In this document: positions 13,495 through 61,714 of the stretch, piece by piece | How positions within the stretch are numbered: the first letter of the stretch is position 1 | Layout: each line of letters begins with the position of its first letter | NCBI GenBank assembly: GCA_016935315.1 | Contig: JAFGRD010000169.1 | Location: 1-64,000 of the forward strand | Length of the DNA: 64,000 bases | DNA from: Pirellulales bacterium | Lineage (GTDB): Bacteria > Planctomycetota > Planctomycetia > Pirellulales > Thermoguttaceae | Reading direction: 5' to 3' | Notes under the pieces: model-generated | Databases searched by the model: none | The model's input: only the letters and a program-made list of their open reading frames with translations | What the model was told of the DNA's origin: nothing | Made by a program: the position numbers and the translations under genes

Positions 13495-13586
13495 GTTTCC
13501 ATCGTGTTGCGTATAATTGACGGACGCATCGAAACCGGCTCGGCAGTTCCCGCGTGAAAGAAGTATAGCTCGCATGGCGGGCCCCA

Positions 13587-13686
13587 ATTGATGGCTGTAT
13601 TGCGAGTGATCAAGGCCGACCAACAGGAGGCCGGGAGGATCGGGTTCCCGTTGGTGCCCTCGCGGATCGACCGCGCCAACGTCAAT
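13587..13686 (+). repeat. Dispersed palindromic element, copy A (100 bp)
   Basis: The element is bounded by ATTGATG (13587-13593) and its near inverted complement CGTCAAT (13680-13686). Inside lie ATTGCGAGTGATCAAGGC and an imperfect hairpin from ACCAAC (13619-13624) to GTTGGT (13650-13655). It aligns along its whole length with the reverse complement of copy C near 26.6 kb. Confidence 0.8.
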
Positions 13687-13807
13687 GAGGCCGAAAACCG
13701 CGGTTCTCACGGTTGCGCCGAGGATAGCGGATAGGCCCGCACGCCCCACCCCCGGGCGATCGCCGGGGCATCCGGCGACGGGCAATTGACGCGGGCCGGA
13801 TGGTGGG

Positions 13808-13849
13808 CTATTGATGTTTGCATTGCAGGTGCGTAAACGTCAATAATAG
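13808..13849. repeat. Minimal copy B of the dispersed element
   Basis: CTATTGATGTTTGCATTGC, 13808 onward, matches the left end of the element. It is followed after a few bases by AAACGTCAATAATAG, so only the two ends remain and form an inverted repeat. It lies about 50 bp upstream of the sulfatase start codon. Confidence 0.7.
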
Positions 13850-26359: not shown

Positions 26360-26472
26360 GATGTGCTCCCGGTCGTTCGATTTGGGTCTCGATTCAAGGA
26401 GGTTCCCGCAACCCCCATTCGAAAAGGGTAGCTTTTCGCGCCGCCGAGGACAAGGGCTTGGGGCCGGCCACC

Positions 26473-26526
26473 GGACGGGGTGGACGGGCCGGACGGGGTG
26501 GACGGGCCTGACGGGGTGGACGGGCC
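26473..26526. repeat. Three tandem 18-bp repeats
   Basis: The unit GGACGGGGTGGACGGGCC occurs at 26473-26490 and 26491-26508, and again with one change (first G to T) at 26509-26526. There is no spacer between units, so this is a minisatellite and not a CRISPR array. Confidence 0.95.
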
Positions 26527-26616
26527 TGGGAGTGCGGTGGTTGGAGAAGCTGACTTGCATGTGGCCGGAAGATGTGGTCTGCTGGGAGACATGGCAGGGC
26601 AACGGGAATTCTGCTT

Positions 26617-26720
26617 TATTGACGCGTGCACACTCAATGCGCGAGGGCGACCAACGGGAGCCCGACTTGTCCGGCCTCCCGTTGGTCGGCCTGAATCATT
26701 CCCAAGGCAAACATCAATAG
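26617..26720 (-). repeat. Dispersed palindromic element, copy C (104 bp)
   Basis: The ends are TATTGACG (26617-26624) and CATCAATAG (26712-26720), inverted complements of each other. The core is a perfect 13-bp inverted repeat, CGACCAACGGGAG (26648-26660) and CTCCCGTTGGTCG (26676-26688), with three further pairs inside after one mismatch. Read on the minus strand it aligns with copy A. Its terminal AG joins GA to make an AGGA ribosome binding site for the gene at 26730. Confidence 0.85.
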
Positions 26721-26729
26721 GATAGCTCG

Positions 26730-28592
26730 ATGCGATCGTTCTTGCACCGGAAACGGTTTCGCGCGGGGGTAAACCCCGCGGCTCGCCTGCAGGGTAGGGT
26801 TGTGACGGGCGCGGGTTGGGCGGCCGGGCAAGGACGGCCGTTGTCTGGCGCCGTGCTGGTGCTTCTGACGGCGGCACTGGTTGTGCGAGCCGATACCACG
26901 TCCGACGTGGCCACGGACGACGCCCGGCAGGAGCTTTCGGTATCGCAGACGTTCAACGACGCTCCCTTCCGCTATGGGATGCGGCTGCTGGCCAAGCAGG
27001 CCGGCTATCGGGTTTACCGGCTGACGTATCCTTCGCCGGTGGTCACGCCGGTCGAGCAGAACAACACGATTCCGGCCGACTACTACCTTCCCGACGGCAT
27101 CCGTCCCGGGGCCCCCGGGCGGCCGGCCGTGATCTGCATGCACATTCTCGAGGGCAATTTCGAGTTGGTGCACATGACCTGCTCGGTGTTGGCGTCGCGC
27201 GGCGTGCCGGCGCTGATGTTCAAGCTGCCCTACTATGGCGAGCGGAGTCTGCCCGGCGGCCGCGAAGCCTTGGCGAACGACCCGGCGTTGTTTGCGGGCG
27301 CGTTGTCGCAGGCGATGCAGGACGTGCAGCGGACGGTCGATGTGCTGGCTTCGCGGCCGGAGATCGATCCGCGGCGGATCGGCATCACCGGAATCAGCCT
27401 CGGCGGCATTGTGGCTGCGACCGCCGCCGGTGTCGATCCGCGGTTGGGCCGGGCCGCGTTGATCCTTGCCGGCGGCGACCTGATGCACATCGTCCATCAC
27501 GCCCGAGAAACGCGCAGGCTCAGCGAGACCATCCGGCGCATGCCACCGCGGCAGCGGGCTGATTTGGAGGCCAGAATCCGCGAGGTCGATCCGTTGCGGC
27601 ACGCGGCCGGGCTCCGTGAGCGGGCCCGGCAAGGGCGGGTGATGATGATCAACGCGGAGGCCGATCAGGTGATTCCCCCGCCCTGCACCGAGAAGCTGGC
27701 CGCCGCGCTGGGGATCGCCGAGAAGGTGGTCTGGCTCAAGGGGCTCGGCCACTACACGGCCATGGCGGCCATGCCGCAGGCGCTGCAGCACACGGCCGAT
27801 TTTTTCGCCCAGGATCTGCCGCCCGGGGTGAAAGCGGTGGACCCGACGCCGGCCGGCGGCTCGGCGTCGCGGACCGTGGCCCTGTTGCTGCAGCAGGCCG
27901 GGGCCCTGCTGGTTTCCGACCCCGAGCCGGGGCGCTGCCACTTCGTGGACCTCGAACTTGCGGCCACGTGGAAAGACGGCAAACCGGTCGCCGGCAAGCT
28001 TCGGCTGGTGCGGGGCGCGTCGAGCCGGTTCAGCATCCGCTGTGAGATTCCCGGTCTGGGCAAGGCCGCCCTGGGCCAAGGGGCCTATCCCTGGTTGGCT
28101 TCCGCCCAACAGACCGTGTTTCGCGGCACGATCGGCGCCCCGGCCGAGCCCGGCAATCCGCTGGCCTATGCCGATGAGCAGCACGTCTTGAAGCTGCGAA
28201 TGCTCTCCGGCGCGCTGGCGGCGGTGGCCATGGCCCCCGAGATGCTCGAACGATGGGTGACCATTGCCGACGATCCCGCCGCGGCAACGACGGGCTCTGC
28301 CGACGAGGGCGGCCGGCCGGCGATCCGAATCGTCCGCAAGGCCAACGGCGACCGGAAGCCCGACCAGGTGCGGCTGGTCCTGGACCGCGACGGGCGAGCG
28401 CCGCAGCGTCTTTCCTTCAACGTGGAGGGCGCGCGGGGAACCGTGACGTTCCGCGGCTGGCAATTCAACACCCTGGCCCACGAGTCGCTCTTCAAGGAAC
28501 CGGACAACCTGACCGCTGAAGAAGTCAAGGCGGAAGATCTACACCGGGTCTTCTCCGCCCTGTTCAGCTTTGCCATGGAGCACGTGCAGTGA
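26730..28592 (+). CDS. Exported alpha/beta hydrolase with C-terminal extension
   Basis: A 620-residue protein. A signal-anchor-like hydrophobic segment (about 40-53) follows an Arg-rich leader, so the true start may be internal. The alpha/beta-hydrolase core runs from about 110 to 365: GRPAVICMHILEG (oxyanion strand), nucleophile Ser223 in ITGISLGG, acid in INAEADQVIPPP, and His in LKGLGHYTAM. Residues about 385-620 have no recognised domain and look beta-rich. It resembles planctomycete 'acetyl xylan esterase/dienelactone hydrolase' type proteins, but substrate assignment is not justified. Its stop overlaps the next gene's start (GTGA), so the two are translationally coupled. Confidence 0.82.
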   Translation: MRSFLHRKRFRAGVNPAARLQGRVVTGAGWAAGQGRPLSGAVLVLLTAALVVRADTTSDVATDDARQELSVSQTFNDAPFRYGMRLLAKQAGYRVYRLTYPSPVVTPVEQNNTIPADYYLPDGIRPGAPGRPAVICMHILEGNFELVHMTCSVLASRGVPALMFKLPYYGERSLPGGREALANDPALFAGALSQAMQDVQRTVDVLASRPEIDPRRIGITGISLGGIVAATAAGVDPRLGRAALILAGGDLMHIVHHARETRRLSETIRRMPPRQRADLEARIREVDPLRHAAGLRERARQGRVMMINAEADQVIPPPCTEKLAAALGIAEKVVWLKGLGHYTAMAAMPQALQHTADFFAQDLPPGVKAVDPTPAGGSASRTVALLLQQAGALLVSDPEPGRCHFVDLELAATWKDGKPVAGKLRLVRGASSRFSIRCEIPGLGKAALGQGAYPWLASAQQTVFRGTIGAPAEPGNPLAYADEQHVLKLRMLSGALAAVAMAPEMLERWVTIADDPAAATTGSADEGGRPAIRIVRKANGDRKPDQVRLVLDRDGRAPQRLSFNVEGARGTVTFRGWQFNTLAHESLFKEPDNLTAEEVKAEDLHRVFSALFSFAMEHVQ

Positions 28593-45871: not shown

Positions 45872-47299
45872 TCAGTCAACGTCTTCTTCGACCAGATAGA
45901 CGTTACCCTGTTTCAGCCCCAGGTAGTGAAATCGCTTGGCCGAATCGAACGGCAATCGGGCCTCGGGCACCGTCCAGATAGCCTCGTAGCGACGGGCCGC
46001 CTCCTGGTCGTCGACGACGGTGAACGCCTCTTTGCCGCGGGTGGCCGCGTAGACGTAGTGCGCGCCGTCGGGCGTGAACGTCAGGTACCCAACCATGTCG
46101 TAGCGTCGATTGCGCCGGCCGTCGACGACCACGAACGAGGCGTTGCCCAAGCGGGCGATATGGCCCCAGCGGCGGCCGTCGCGGCTGAACGTCAGCGTGC
46201 CGCCGCCGACGCGATCGAAGGGGCGTTGCGGGCGGCCGTCGAGCACGACCGTCTCCGTGCCACCGGAGGTCGCCGTATAGGCCAGCCGCCGGCCGTCGGG
46301 ACTGAAGCGAATCTCGGCGACCTCATCGAACGGCGTCCCCTCGTGGTCGCCGGCCACCACCAGCCACTTTTCGCCGGCTTCGGCCGCGTAGACCAGCGTC
46401 CTGCCGTCGGGGTCGAATTGCAGCGTGCCGTCGCCGATCGCCTTGTAGGGTTTTTGCTCCTGGCCATCGACCACCACCAGCCATTGCCCATCGGGCCGCA
46501 TGGCCGCGTAGGCCAACCGGTTGCCGTCGCCGTTGAAGACGAGCTGGCCCAGGTTCTCGTACGCCGGTTGCGGCTGCTGATCGACCACGACCGACCACTG
46601 CCGCTTTTCCGCGGAATAGGCCGCGAAGGCCATGCGGCGGCCGTCGGGGCTGAAGCGGATGCCGGTGCGCGAGCCCAGGTAGTCAAACGGCCCGCCCTCC
46701 TGGTCGTCGAGGACGATGTGCCACTGTTGTCCGAGCCGGACGCCGTAGGCCAGCCGGCTGCCGTCACCGCCGAAGACGATCGCCCCGTCGAAGATCTCGT
46801 CGTAGGGCTTGCCCGGCTTGTTGTTGACGACCACGACGCGTTTCCCATCGGGCAACAAGGCGACGTGTGCCAGCCGCCGGCTGTTGGGGCTGAACACGGG
46901 CGGGCCGACCCGGTCGTAGGGCCCCTGTTCCCGCTGGTTGACCACAAGATACCACTTCCCGGCGGCCGAGGCCGCGTAGGCCAGCCACCGGCTGTCGGGG
47001 CTGAACTGCGGGGCGGCCACGCGATCGTAGGCCTTCTGGGAGCGGCCGTCCACAACGACGGCTTGCCCGGCTTGCGAAGGTTCGATGGAGGCCAGCCGCC
47101 GCCCGTTTGGGCTGATTACCGCCGAATCGTACTGCTCCGAGGGCAACGGCCCCAGCAGCGTTTCGGTATAGCGCCGATTGACCGGCGCCTGGGCGACGGC
47201 GACGCCCGCCACCGTCAGCATGACAGTCAGCATGACAGCCGGCATGACAGTCGGAACGGCAGGCAGCAGGATCCCCGCGGCGTTGTCTTTGCAGAACAT
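45872..47299 (-). CDS. Exported beta-propeller (TolB/PD40-like repeat) protein
   Basis: A 475-residue protein with a signal peptide (1-37) and about nine repeats of about 44 residues. Each repeat follows the pattern F(S/N)PDGRRLAY-A-xxGxxWxVVVDGxxxxPYDxVG, for example at SPNSRRLAHVALLPDG, SPDGRRMAFAAYSAEK and DPDGRTLVYAAEAGEK. Such WD40/PD40-type propellers serve as ligand or protein-interaction platforms in the periplasm. The signal peptide's hydrophobic core has been lengthened by three 12-bp DNA repeats. The next gene on the same strand ends 8 bp upstream, so the two are probably co-transcribed. Confidence 0.85.
   Translation of the reverse strand: MFCKDNAAGILLPAVPTVMPAVMLTVMLTVAGVAVAQAPVNRRYTETLLGPLPSEQYDSAVISPNGRRLASIEPSQAGQAVVVDGRSQKAYDRVAAPQFSPDSRWLAYAASAAGKWYLVVNQREQGPYDRVGPPVFSPNSRRLAHVALLPDGKRVVVVNNKPGKPYDEIFDGAIVFGGDGSRLAYGVRLGQQWHIVLDDQEGGPFDYLGSRTGIRFSPDGRRMAFAAYSAEKRQWSVVVDQQPQPAYENLGQLVFNGDGNRLAYAAMRPDGQWLVVVDGQEQKPYKAIGDGTLQFDPDGRTLVYAAEAGEKWLVVAGDHEGTPFDEVAEIRFSPDGRRLAYTATSGGTETVVLDGRPQRPFDRVGGGTLTFSRDGRRWGHIARLGNASFVVVDGRRNRRYDMVGYLTFTPDGAHYVYAATRGKEAFTVVDDQEAARRYEAIWTVPEARLPFDSAKRFHYLGLKQGNVYLVEEDVD
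47214..47249. repeat. Three 12-bp tandem repeats inside a signal-peptide coding region
   Basis: GTCAGCATGACA occurs at 47214-47225 and 47226-47237, with a two-base variant GCCGGCATGACA at 47238-47249. Read on the minus strand the repeats encode the VMPAVMLTVMLTV part of the propeller protein's signal peptide. Confidence 0.9.
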
Positions 47300-53443: not shown

Positions 53444-53716
53444 GACAACTCCAATTGGCTTGAAAAGAGACAATGCTGGGAAATGTCGCAAACGGTGTAC
53501 CTATCGGCTGGAGATTCCTTTCGACTACAGCAAAGCCCGGCAAAGAGCCCCGGATTTTCGGCAAGGATTCCCTGTCTTCCCAAAACGCGCCAGATCACTA
53601 ATGTCGTTTGCCCAGTCAATCCGCGAGGGTGCCCAATAGAAACCCGATATTCTTCGACCTCCCGCTGCAAAGCCGCCGTTGAAGTCGCCGCATGCTGGGC
53701 GTTCCGACTCACGGGC

Positions 53717-58439: not shown

Positions 58440-60620
58440 ATGTCACCAACCGGTCGCCCAACCTCGGTCTCCCACCTATGGCATCGGCGGGTCGCATGGA
58501 CCGTCCTGCTCGCGGCGGCCGTCTTGTCGGCGGGCGGATGTGCCTCGTCGCGCGGCGTCAGTCTCCGCTCGATCCCCCAGAACCCCCTGGCCGATTCGCT
58601 GAAGCTCACTGCCCGCAGCGGACCGCGACCCAGCCCGCGAACGGTCCAGGTGCTGCGGGTGTGCAACCTCCGCTGGGACGCCGACGCCGACCCCCGGCAA
58701 CTGCTGCAGAACCTGCAAACGACGATCGAGCACGACCCTTCGCCGGAGAAGGTCTATGCGTTTGCCGAGCTTGCCTACATGGGCGGCAGGAAGGCGGAGG
58801 AGTTCGACACGGAGATCTCGCTGGATCTGTACGGCGCCGCGGTGTTGTATGCCTACCACTACCTCTTCGACGAGCACTTTGCCGGCGTGCGCAATCCCTA
58901 CGACCCCCAGTTCCGCGGCGCCTGCGATCTGTACAACGGTGCGTTGGAAGGGGCCCTGCGCATCGCGTGCAAACAGGGCGAACTGGTGCCCGGCAACAGG
59001 ACCACCATTCACACGGCGGCGGGCAGTTGGGACATCACCTGCGTGCTCCGTGGCAGCCGTTGGCGCGCCGAAGACTTCGGGGGCTTCAAGTTCGTCTCCG
59101 ACTACGAGATCAAGGGGCTGAAGAACCACTATCGAACCTACGGCCTGGGTGTTCCGCTGATCGCCGTGCGGCGCCGCTACGAAGGCGAGCCGGCGGCCGC
59201 CAGGTACTATCCGGAGGGGCTGAGCTTCCCGGTCACGGCCTTTCTGCGGCCGACGCCGCGGGTCGATCCCTTGACCGGGCGGACGACCGACCATCACCAA
59301 TGCGTGTTGGAGCTGTACGACCCGCTGATTACCTCGGGCACGACCGTGGCCGGGCGGCAGGTCGCGCTGCAGAGCGACCTGTCCACGCCGCTGGCCTACT
59401 TCCTCTCGAATCCGCAGATGGAGGACCTGGCCACCGTCGGCCTGTTGCGGCCCGACGTGCTGCTGAAGCTCCAGCCGGGCCGGCAAACGCCGCTGATGGG
59501 CCTTTACATGGTGCAGCCCTACGAGCCGGGCAAAATACCCGTGCTCATGGTGCACGGGCTCTGGTCCAGTCCCATGACCTGGATGGAGATGTTCAACGAT
59601 CTGCGCAACTCGCCGGCGATCCGCGACCACTACCAGTTCTGGTTCTATCTCTACCCCTCCGGCCAGCCGTTCTGGATCAGCGCGGCCCAACTCCGCGAAG
59701 ATCTCCTCCAGGCCCGGCGGCTGCTCGATCCGCAGTGGCAAGAGCCTGCGCTGGATCAAATGGTGCTGGTCGGGCACAGCATGGGTGGCTTGATCGCCCG
59801 ACTGCAAACGATCAACAGCCGCACCGATTTCTGGAATCTGGCCAGTGAAAAGCCGCTCGACGCGCTGCGGGCCGAACCGGAGGAGCGACAGACGCTGCAG
59901 AAGATCTTCTTCTTCCAGCCCAGCCCGTCCATCCGCCGCGTCATTACCATCGGCACGCCGCACCGCGGCAGCAGCTTCTCCAACCAGACCACCCAATGGC
60001 TGCTGGGCAAGCTGATCACCCTGCCCCAACGGCTGGTCAACAGCCAGCAGAAGCTCTTCCGCGACAACCAGGCCATGTTTGCCGATCGGTCGTTGCTGCG
60101 GGTGGAGAACAGCATCGACTCGCTGGCCCCCGGCTCACCCATCTTCCCGGTGATGCTGGCCAGCCGGCGTCCGCCCTGGGTGACCTACCACAACATCGTT
60201 GGTTCCATCCCCAACGACAGTTGGTGGACGCCGATCGTGGCTGGCGGTGACGGAGTGGTGGCCGAACAGAGCGCCCGGGTGGAAGACGTCGCGTCGGAAA
60301 TCACGGTGCCGGCCGACCACAGTTCGGTACACAGCCATCCGTTGGCCGTGCTGGAGGTCCGCCGCATCCTGCTGGCGCACCTGGCCGAGCTCCGCGCCTC
60401 GCCGACACGCGGCGTCGCGGCGCCACAGACCGCCGGCGTCCCCGGACCTGCGCCGGCGAGACTTGCTGTGCCGGGACCTGCCGTGCGAAGACCCACCACG
60501 CTGGAGCTTGCCGCGCCGGGGCTCGCCGCACCGGGACTCACCACCCTGAAACTTGCCACGCCGGGACTCACCACGCCGGGGCCTATCGCGCGAGGATCCG
60601 CCGCTGCCCTGGCACATTGA
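58440..60620 (+). CDS. Alpha/beta-hydrolase lipoprotein (putative lipase) with repeat tail
   Basis: A 726-residue putative lipoprotein: a basic leader, hydrophobic core and lipobox LSAGGC with Cys34. A beta-rich N-terminal region (about 50-350) precedes an alpha/beta-hydrolase domain with oxyanion segment PVLMVHGLWSSPMTWMEM, nucleophile Ser447 in VLVGHSMGG, and a likely His late in VPADHSSVHSHPL. The last ~75 residues are three imperfect 15-16-residue repeats rich in Pro, Leu, Ala and Thr (LELAAPGLAAPGLTT, LKLATPGLTTPGP). The start is uncertain (ATGs also at 58374 and 58395). It may release acyl chains from lipids at the envelope (inference). Confidence 0.82.
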   Translation: MSPTGRPTSVSHLWHRRVAWTVLLAAAVLSAGGCASSRGVSLRSIPQNPLADSLKLTARSGPRPSPRTVQVLRVCNLRWDADADPRQLLQNLQTTIEHDPSPEKVYAFAELAYMGGRKAEEFDTEISLDLYGAAVLYAYHYLFDEHFAGVRNPYDPQFRGACDLYNGALEGALRIACKQGELVPGNRTTIHTAAGSWDITCVLRGSRWRAEDFGGFKFVSDYEIKGLKNHYRTYGLGVPLIAVRRRYEGEPAAARYYPEGLSFPVTAFLRPTPRVDPLTGRTTDHHQCVLELYDPLITSGTTVAGRQVALQSDLSTPLAYFLSNPQMEDLATVGLLRPDVLLKLQPGRQTPLMGLYMVQPYEPGKIPVLMVHGLWSSPMTWMEMFNDLRNSPAIRDHYQFWFYLYPSGQPFWISAAQLREDLLQARRLLDPQWQEPALDQMVLVGHSMGGLIARLQTINSRTDFWNLASEKPLDALRAEPEERQTLQKIFFFQPSPSIRRVITIGTPHRGSSFSNQTTQWLLGKLITLPQRLVNSQQKLFRDNQAMFADRSLLRVENSIDSLAPGSPIFPVMLASRRPPWVTYHNIVGSIPNDSWWTPIVAGGDGVVAEQSARVEDVASEITVPADHSSVHSHPLAVLEVRRILLAHLAELRASPTRGVAAPQTAGVPGPAPARLAVPGPAVRRPTTLELAAPGLAAPGLTTLKLATPGLTTPGPIARGSAAALAH
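60447..60595. repeat. Minisatellite coding for the Pro/Leu/Thr tail of the lipase
   Basis: Related units of about 45 bp, visible as CTTGCCGCGCCGGGGCTC, CTTGCCACGCCGGGACTCAC and shorter CCGGGACTCACCAC blocks, fill the end of the gene. They keep frame and encode APGL/TPGL repeats. Confidence 0.75.
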
Positions 60621-60722
60621 CTGTGCAAACATCAGTAAGGGCCCTTTCTTTCGGGCGGAGCGATCGTATACTGGTTGCTGCTGAGCTTCCGCAACGGACA
60701 GGGACAAGGACACGGCGTCCAA

Positions 60723-61491: not shown

Positions 61492-61545
61492 CTATTGATG
61501 TTGGCATTGCGAATGATCCAGGCCGGTCCTACGGGCCGCCCGCGT
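61492..61545 (+). repeat. Dispersed palindromic element, partial copy D
   Basis: CTATTGATGTTGGCATTGCG (61492 onward) and AATGATCCAGGCCG match the left third of the element. The hairpin core and right end are degenerate or missing. It begins 8 bp after the SDR stop codon, in the upstream region of the aldo/keto reductase gene. Confidence 0.75.
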
Positions 61546-61714
61546 TTTCGGACATGCTGGACATTCTCGCGGGACGACTGGTGGCGATCCGCGGCCCGGT
61601 CGTCTATAATCGGCGGGACCGGAGCGCATCCGAGGCGCATCCCAACAGCCGTAGGATTCACAACTTCATTGAAGACTGGACTCAGGCAGAAGTCCAGTCG
61701 GGAGGGGTTTTGCC

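Follow-up and report, generated by a model that had tools for sequence, protein, structure and literature searches.

A 103-bp palindromic repeat of a Pirellulales genome, very probably an IS630-type MITE, and its internal hairpin core

The locus

The window analysed here, 64,000 nucleotides of contig JAFGRD010000169.1 from a Pirellulales bacterium, carries a palindromic element (copy C) between a DJ-1/PfpI gene and a gene for a Peptidase_S9/DLH protein. The initial annotation placed this element at 26617–26720; it is indeed present, but its limits are 26617–26719, one base shorter, with a TA at either end, a T before and a G after. The inverted ends described there (TATTGACG.../...CATCAATA) and the perfect 13-bp inverted repeat were both recovered, as was the end-to-end alignment with a copy on the opposite strand near 13.6 kb (copy A). 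In the orientation of its relatives, which puts the TATTGATG end first, copy C lies on the minus strand. The features of the window are as follows.

26617–26719, plus strand: full 103-bp copy C of the putative MITE (HMM match 1–103; 99/103 identical to the genome-wide consensus)
26617–26640, plus strand: terminal inverted repeat 1 (TATTGACGCGTGCACACTCAATGC), resembling the right end of Pirellulales IS630 elements
26696–26719, minus strand: terminal inverted repeat 2 (TATTGATGTTTGCC... on the minus strand), resembling the left end of Pirellulales IS630 elements
26617–26618, no strand: TA, copy 1 of the presumed 2-bp target duplication, T before (Y before TA in 99/102 full copies; empty sites)
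26718–26719, no strand: TA, copy 2 of the presumed target duplication, G after (R after TA in 98/102; empty site of copy C)
26645–26663, minus strand: canonical internal hairpin core GGGC-TCCCGTTGGTC-GCCC (fixed offset in ~20 genera, covarying stem)
26673–26691, plus strand: second, inverted core GGCC-TCCCGTTGGTC-GGCC (as a second core only in the elements of the source genome)
26648–26660 and 26676–26688, no strand: left and right arms of the perfect 13-bp inverted repeat
26730–28592, plus strand: downstream gene, Peptidase_S9/DLH (dienelactone-hydrolase-like), outside the element
13586–13687, minus strand: full copy A, older, ~74% identical to copy C over 86 bp
13809–13845, plus strand: mini copy B, 37 bp, ends only (TATTGATGTTTGCATTGC...GCGTAAACGTCAATA)
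61493–61571, minus strand: fragment D, a single end and part of the interior
53600–53667, plus strand: fragment E, left two thirds, decayed
60606–60637, minus strand: fragment F, a single end only, weak (E 0.019)

The long palindrome and its perfect 13-bp stem are due to the second, inverted core in the element of the source genome; no T-run follows the hairpin of copy C. Two further repeats were seen in the window: a short tandem repeat (~GGACGGGGTGGACGGGCC) at 26470–26530, between the DJ-1/PfpI gene and copy C, and six 54-bp units at 46253–47005, spaced by ~111–120 bp with one gap of 231, which probably encode a repeat protein.

Copy C had been described as abutting the putative start codon at 26730; it lies near it, with ten bases between the last base of the element and the ATG. 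The accompanying proposal that the element completes an AGGA ribosome-binding site does not hold. With copy C removed, the empty site reads ...ATTCTGCTT[TA]GGATAGCTCGATG, i.e. TTTAGGATAGCTCGATG, and already includes AGGA, since the target-type TA provides the A as its second base; the site is thus complete without the insertion. Copy C does place a strong hairpin (RNA z of about -5.4) directly upstream of this gene.

Copy number and conservation

Copies were surveyed in a sample of 1.66 Mb of the 7.1-Mb genome, the assembly of which comprises 172 contigs. Thirty genome copies were aligned, all of exactly 103 bp and with unrelated flanks, and the resulting HMM profile found 129 loci in the sample (102 at full length) but no locus in the reversed sequence. 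Scaled up, this corresponds to about 550 copies, or near 0.8% of the genome. A BLAST search of the genome with copy C gave ~40 places at 89–95% identity, and the end motif TATTGAYGYTTGCA, with one mismatch allowed, gave 496 matches against three for the reversed pattern, ruling out the chance-level similarity that the initial annotation had named as a refutation. Identity of the full copies to the consensus ranges from 61 to 99% (median 90%), so copies of many ages lie side by side.

Nor is a coding frame the cause of the conservation: according to a rough ORF-based gene model, on which all coding and stop-codon fractions given here are based, the midpoint of a full copy falls within a predicted ORF in 26 of 102 cases, whereas 88 would be expected. 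The element is short and of high copy number, carries no transposase gene and has terminal inverted repeats with sharp limits, as is characteristic of MITEs.

Target site and empty sites

The base preceding the first TA is C or T in 99 of the 102 full copies and the base following the last TA is A or G in 98; the same Y-TA...TA-R setting was found in all 47 copies examined from ~15 other genera. Two MITE copies interrupt other dispersed repeats, so that occupied and empty sites can be compared (L252:3723 with L086:7518–7618, and L228:11412 with L237). Both alignments (78–85% identity) are gapless when the element is taken out along with one 2-bp copy, and most of the 20 copies in the sample of the repeat holding the L228:11412 site are uninterrupted. 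Some copies also lie head to tail as pairs, overlapping by a few bases of their ends.

A search for duplications of 1–10 bp outside the ends gave no excess over permuted pairs; a 2-bp duplication is not visible statistically because the TA belongs to every copy. Its size of 2 bp is thus deduced from the empty sites, at the identity given above, and from IS630 precedent: the IS630-family element ISY100 duplicates its TA target upon insertion (PMC2170065). By analogy with ISY100, the empty sites and the TA context are what TA-targeting, TA-duplicating transposition would be expected to leave behind (PMC2170065).

A second dispersed palindromic repeat (...GCAAGGCCGCTGCGCGTCCTTGCACTTTCATGTATGTCCAACTTGTTCTTTTGCGAGTCCTTAG) was observed at L071:13541, L106:17142 and L228:11381 and in ~17 other places in the 1.66 Mb. 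The MITE has inserted into this repeat, which could be a TA-ended MITE in its own right.

A candidate transposase partner

A relative of the L111 transposase served as query in a search for partner elements across 396 genomes of the order, the ends then being paired by script. This revealed a Pirellulales clade of ~1.1-kb, two-ORF IS630 elements with TATTGAY..YTGCGC....AATGA ends, the transposase of which matches NCBIfam transpos_IS630 (E 1.1e-64) with Pfam DDE_3. End 1 of the MITE agrees best with the right end of one such element (L264; 21/26 positions) and end 2 agrees with the left end of another (L274; 19/26), against 5–14 of 26 for IS630 elements of other clades. In three of these elements the transposase is split into two overlapping frames (L111:1013–2031, L133:1010–2028 and L137:1014–2028), with an A/G-rich run at the frame junction that is consistent with programmed frameshifting.

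The sole complete IS630 element of the source genome (L111, contig C149; ends GATTGACCTTCGCAGAAGTAGTGA and TATTGACTCTCGCAGAAGTAGTGA) matches the MITE ends at 14–16 of 26 positions and has lost one terminal T. A decayed remnant in the same genome (L113) most resembles L264 (68.5% over 54 amino acids), and its right end matches the MITE ends at 17/26 positions. No intact IS630 with exactly matching ends was found in the source genome assembly or among the IS630 elements recovered; with the assembly in 172 contigs, a multi-copy IS may be absent from it. A search of the first 861 kb for an autonomous partner, as paired ends 0.2–6 kb apart, yielded only pairs of neighbouring copies or weak motifs, and a contig scan with the transposase query gave a single locus, in Pirellulales bacterium Zod_Metabat.1299. 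The initial annotation had called for a transposase with matching ends; such ends exist at the level of the clade, up to 21/26, while the exact partner was not found in the source genome. From the end sequences, we infer that the two-ORF Pirellulales clade, traces of which persist in the source genome, was the donor of the MITE.

The internal core was absent from the IS630 elements at up to three mismatches, the one three-mismatch match lying outside the element. Simple internal deletion in the IS elements seen consequently does not account for the MITE.

An order-wide family with a hairpin core

The exact ends are expanded in the source genome alone, with 214 exact matches there against 0–3 per genome in the remaining 395. 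The internal core is multi-copy in many genera and, in all copies inspected, lies within a 103–106-bp element bounded by Y-TATTGA...TCAATA-R or close variants. Across ~20 genera this layout and the hairpin CGGSC-TYCCGTTGGTC-GSCC are kept and the remaining interior is variable; copy numbers vary greatly among genera and are zero in most. Since the core first came from core-seeded searches, the 396 genomes were searched again by ends and spacing only, as an unbiased check. Matches were found in 32 genomes (control, one), and the core occurred at offset 54–59 in 21 of 34 representative elements, a score that a shuffled interior reaches with P 0.002. Outside the order, two single matches to the core were found in a sample of the class, and the one inspected was not an element; the core is essentially absent outside Pirellulales.

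Over 22 distinct rows, pairing holds in 98.9% of the stem cells. Of the pairs, one is G-C in 12 rows and C-G in nine, another switches once, and the covariation score was reached by none of 500 shuffles. As the rows are related, this covariation supports, without proving, a selected hairpin. The strong hairpin of the element has RNA z values of -5.4 and -5.8, and within the source genome core positions depart from the consensus at about half the rate of the ends (0.06–0.08 versus 0.13).

It is tempting to regard the hairpin (GGSC stem, loop TYCCGTTGGTC) as a functional module of a stop-tolerant IS630-type MITE, serving as a host-factor or transposase site, although we hold this to be somewhat less probable than not. 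If true, the MITE would have a recognizable third functional part besides its two ends, kept at a fixed position through the diversification of the order. The conserved hairpin offers a testable candidate binding site. Two elements in other genomes (G167 and G221; L320 and L321) have TATTGAT..YTGC ends, a length of ~105–107 bp and a long palindromic interior without the core, and represent a second kind of MITE with such ends in the order.

Insertion at stop codons

Among the 45 copies in which both TAs are intact, 17 gene ends run into the element at their stop codon. The element end TATTGA supplies the stop to the incoming frame as TAT-TGA, or a decayed form of it, and for 15 of the 17 the codon in the empty site is TAA or TAG. 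Stop codons make up 21% of permissive YTAR sites, so that 17/45 corresponds to p 0.009, a value that is slightly optimistic because the 17 gene ends belong to 16 copies, one being counted twice. At L102:15239 two frames converge on a copy of the element, and both end in it. Several of the stop-abutting proteins contain recognizable, near-complete Pfam domains (IlvD/EDD, DPP-IV/S9, SRP54-type GTPase and FliQ).

The simplest account of this placement combines the scarcity of TA in G+C-rich genes with harmless replacement of the stop, and needs no true preference. Insertions within genes would be lost, whereas those between genes or on TAA or TAG stops would survive, the latter because a fresh stop (TAT TGA) is provided by the TATTGA end one codon later. 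Stop-codon placement is a simple survival route for a TA-targeting element in G+C-rich, gene-dense DNA.

Nature of the element

Taken together, the copy number, the exact ends, the Y-TA...TA-R setting, the empty sites and the matching IS630 ends make it very probable that this is a non-autonomous MITE of the IS630/Tc1-mariner type, 103 bp long including one TA per end, moved by an IS630-family transposase. An IS630-family DDE transposase of the two-ORF Pirellulales clade would bind the TATTGAYnnYTGC... ends, excise the element and insert it at the TA within a Y-TA-R site, with duplication of this TA; this cut-and-paste scheme is modelled on the published work on ISY100. The core was probably kept across genera by aiding the mobilization or the tolerance of the element, a putative role.

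The initial annotation left the choice between a MITE and a REP-type element, and the evidence above favours the former. A REP/BIME element moved by a RAYT (Y1 tyrosine transposase) would likewise be palindromic, intergenic and of high copy number, GTAG-tagged REPs have been reported from Planctomycetes (PMC3733652) and the genome does encode one Y1_Tnp domain. However, this sole hit has no element ends nearby, REPs measure 20–40 bp (PMC3733652) against 103 bp here, and the element has two inverted ends beside TA instead of a one-sided GTAG/GGAG or CGTC tag. The empty sites, moreover, retain one 2-bp copy and the ends match a DDE-type IS630 clade. With symmetric TA-flanked ends and no RAYT gene flanked by repeats, membership of the REP/BIME group is not supported, and we consider this reading very improbable. 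The RAYT-like Y1_Tnp domain belongs to a very long frame at the end of a contig (L070:1–843), with 18-bp tandem repeats (CCGAGCCGCATTCAGTCC; GCCCTTCTGCCGAGCCGC) on either side that are translated in the same frame.

The strong hairpin, the covariation of its stem across genera, its lower rate of deviation and the frequent contact with stop codons might instead suggest an RNA or terminator module used mainly by the host at gene ends or starts, rather than a mobile parasite. This is very unlikely given the great variation in copy number, the zero counts in most genera and the lack of a T-run after the hairpin of copy C; the element also interrupts other repeats and belongs to no Rfam family. Such a role could still be a secondary use of the MITE. 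Some other IS groups likewise use TA-like targets, and no exactly matching IS was found, so an unrelated TA-target transposase missing from the assembly (for example of the IS5/IS427 type) might be thought to move the element. The agreement of the ends at up to 21/26 positions, their left/right asymmetry and the remnants of the matching IS630 clade in the genome make this similarly improbable.

Comparison with known systems

Searches of the open-access literature and Rfam gave no named element with these ends, in agreement with the initial annotation; six element loci gave no covariance-model match at the gathering score in Rfam 15, and the literature yielded no described IS630 MITE for the phylum. 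The family is of a known kind, that of IS630-type MITEs, and has no name in the sources searched; its order-wide hairpin core could be something more. The present data document a large MITE burst (~550 copies) and tie it to a transposase clade. As long as the element is unnamed, genes or ORFs will be wrongly extended into its copies during annotation.

As judged from published descriptions of size, target and proposed mechanism, one close likeness is to RUP, the repeat unit of pneumococcus, a 107-bp element with ~100 copies, IS630-like ends, TA insertion sites and a mostly intergenic location, for which IS630-Spn1 is the proposed mover (PMC2229807, PMC3049150). RUP differs in host phylum and sequence and is reported to have no other structural or functional motif (PMC2229807), whereas the Pirellulales family has an order-wide core hairpin and end-supplied stops. 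The Nezha MITE of cyanobacteria, also compared by description, is likewise a MITE of bacteria for which an IS partner has been proposed (ISNpu3-like elements, cited in PMC3049150) and differs in sequence and host. Correia/NEMIS elements of Neisseria, compared in the same manner, are MITEs near genes of ~100–155 bp, with another host and other length classes, and Correia copies of the 107-bp form are frequently fused to ORFs (PMC2229807). REP/BIME elements with RAYT share the palindromic form, intergenic location and high copy number, but are set apart by the size and tag discussed above. ISY100 and other IS630-family elements have the TA target in common with the MITE, but are autonomous and have different ends; a preference for CTAG is cited for IS630 (in PMC2170065). 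ISY100 encodes a DDE transposase with two HTH motifs (PMC2170065), and the Pirellulales IS630 clade differs from this type in its two overlapping ORFs.
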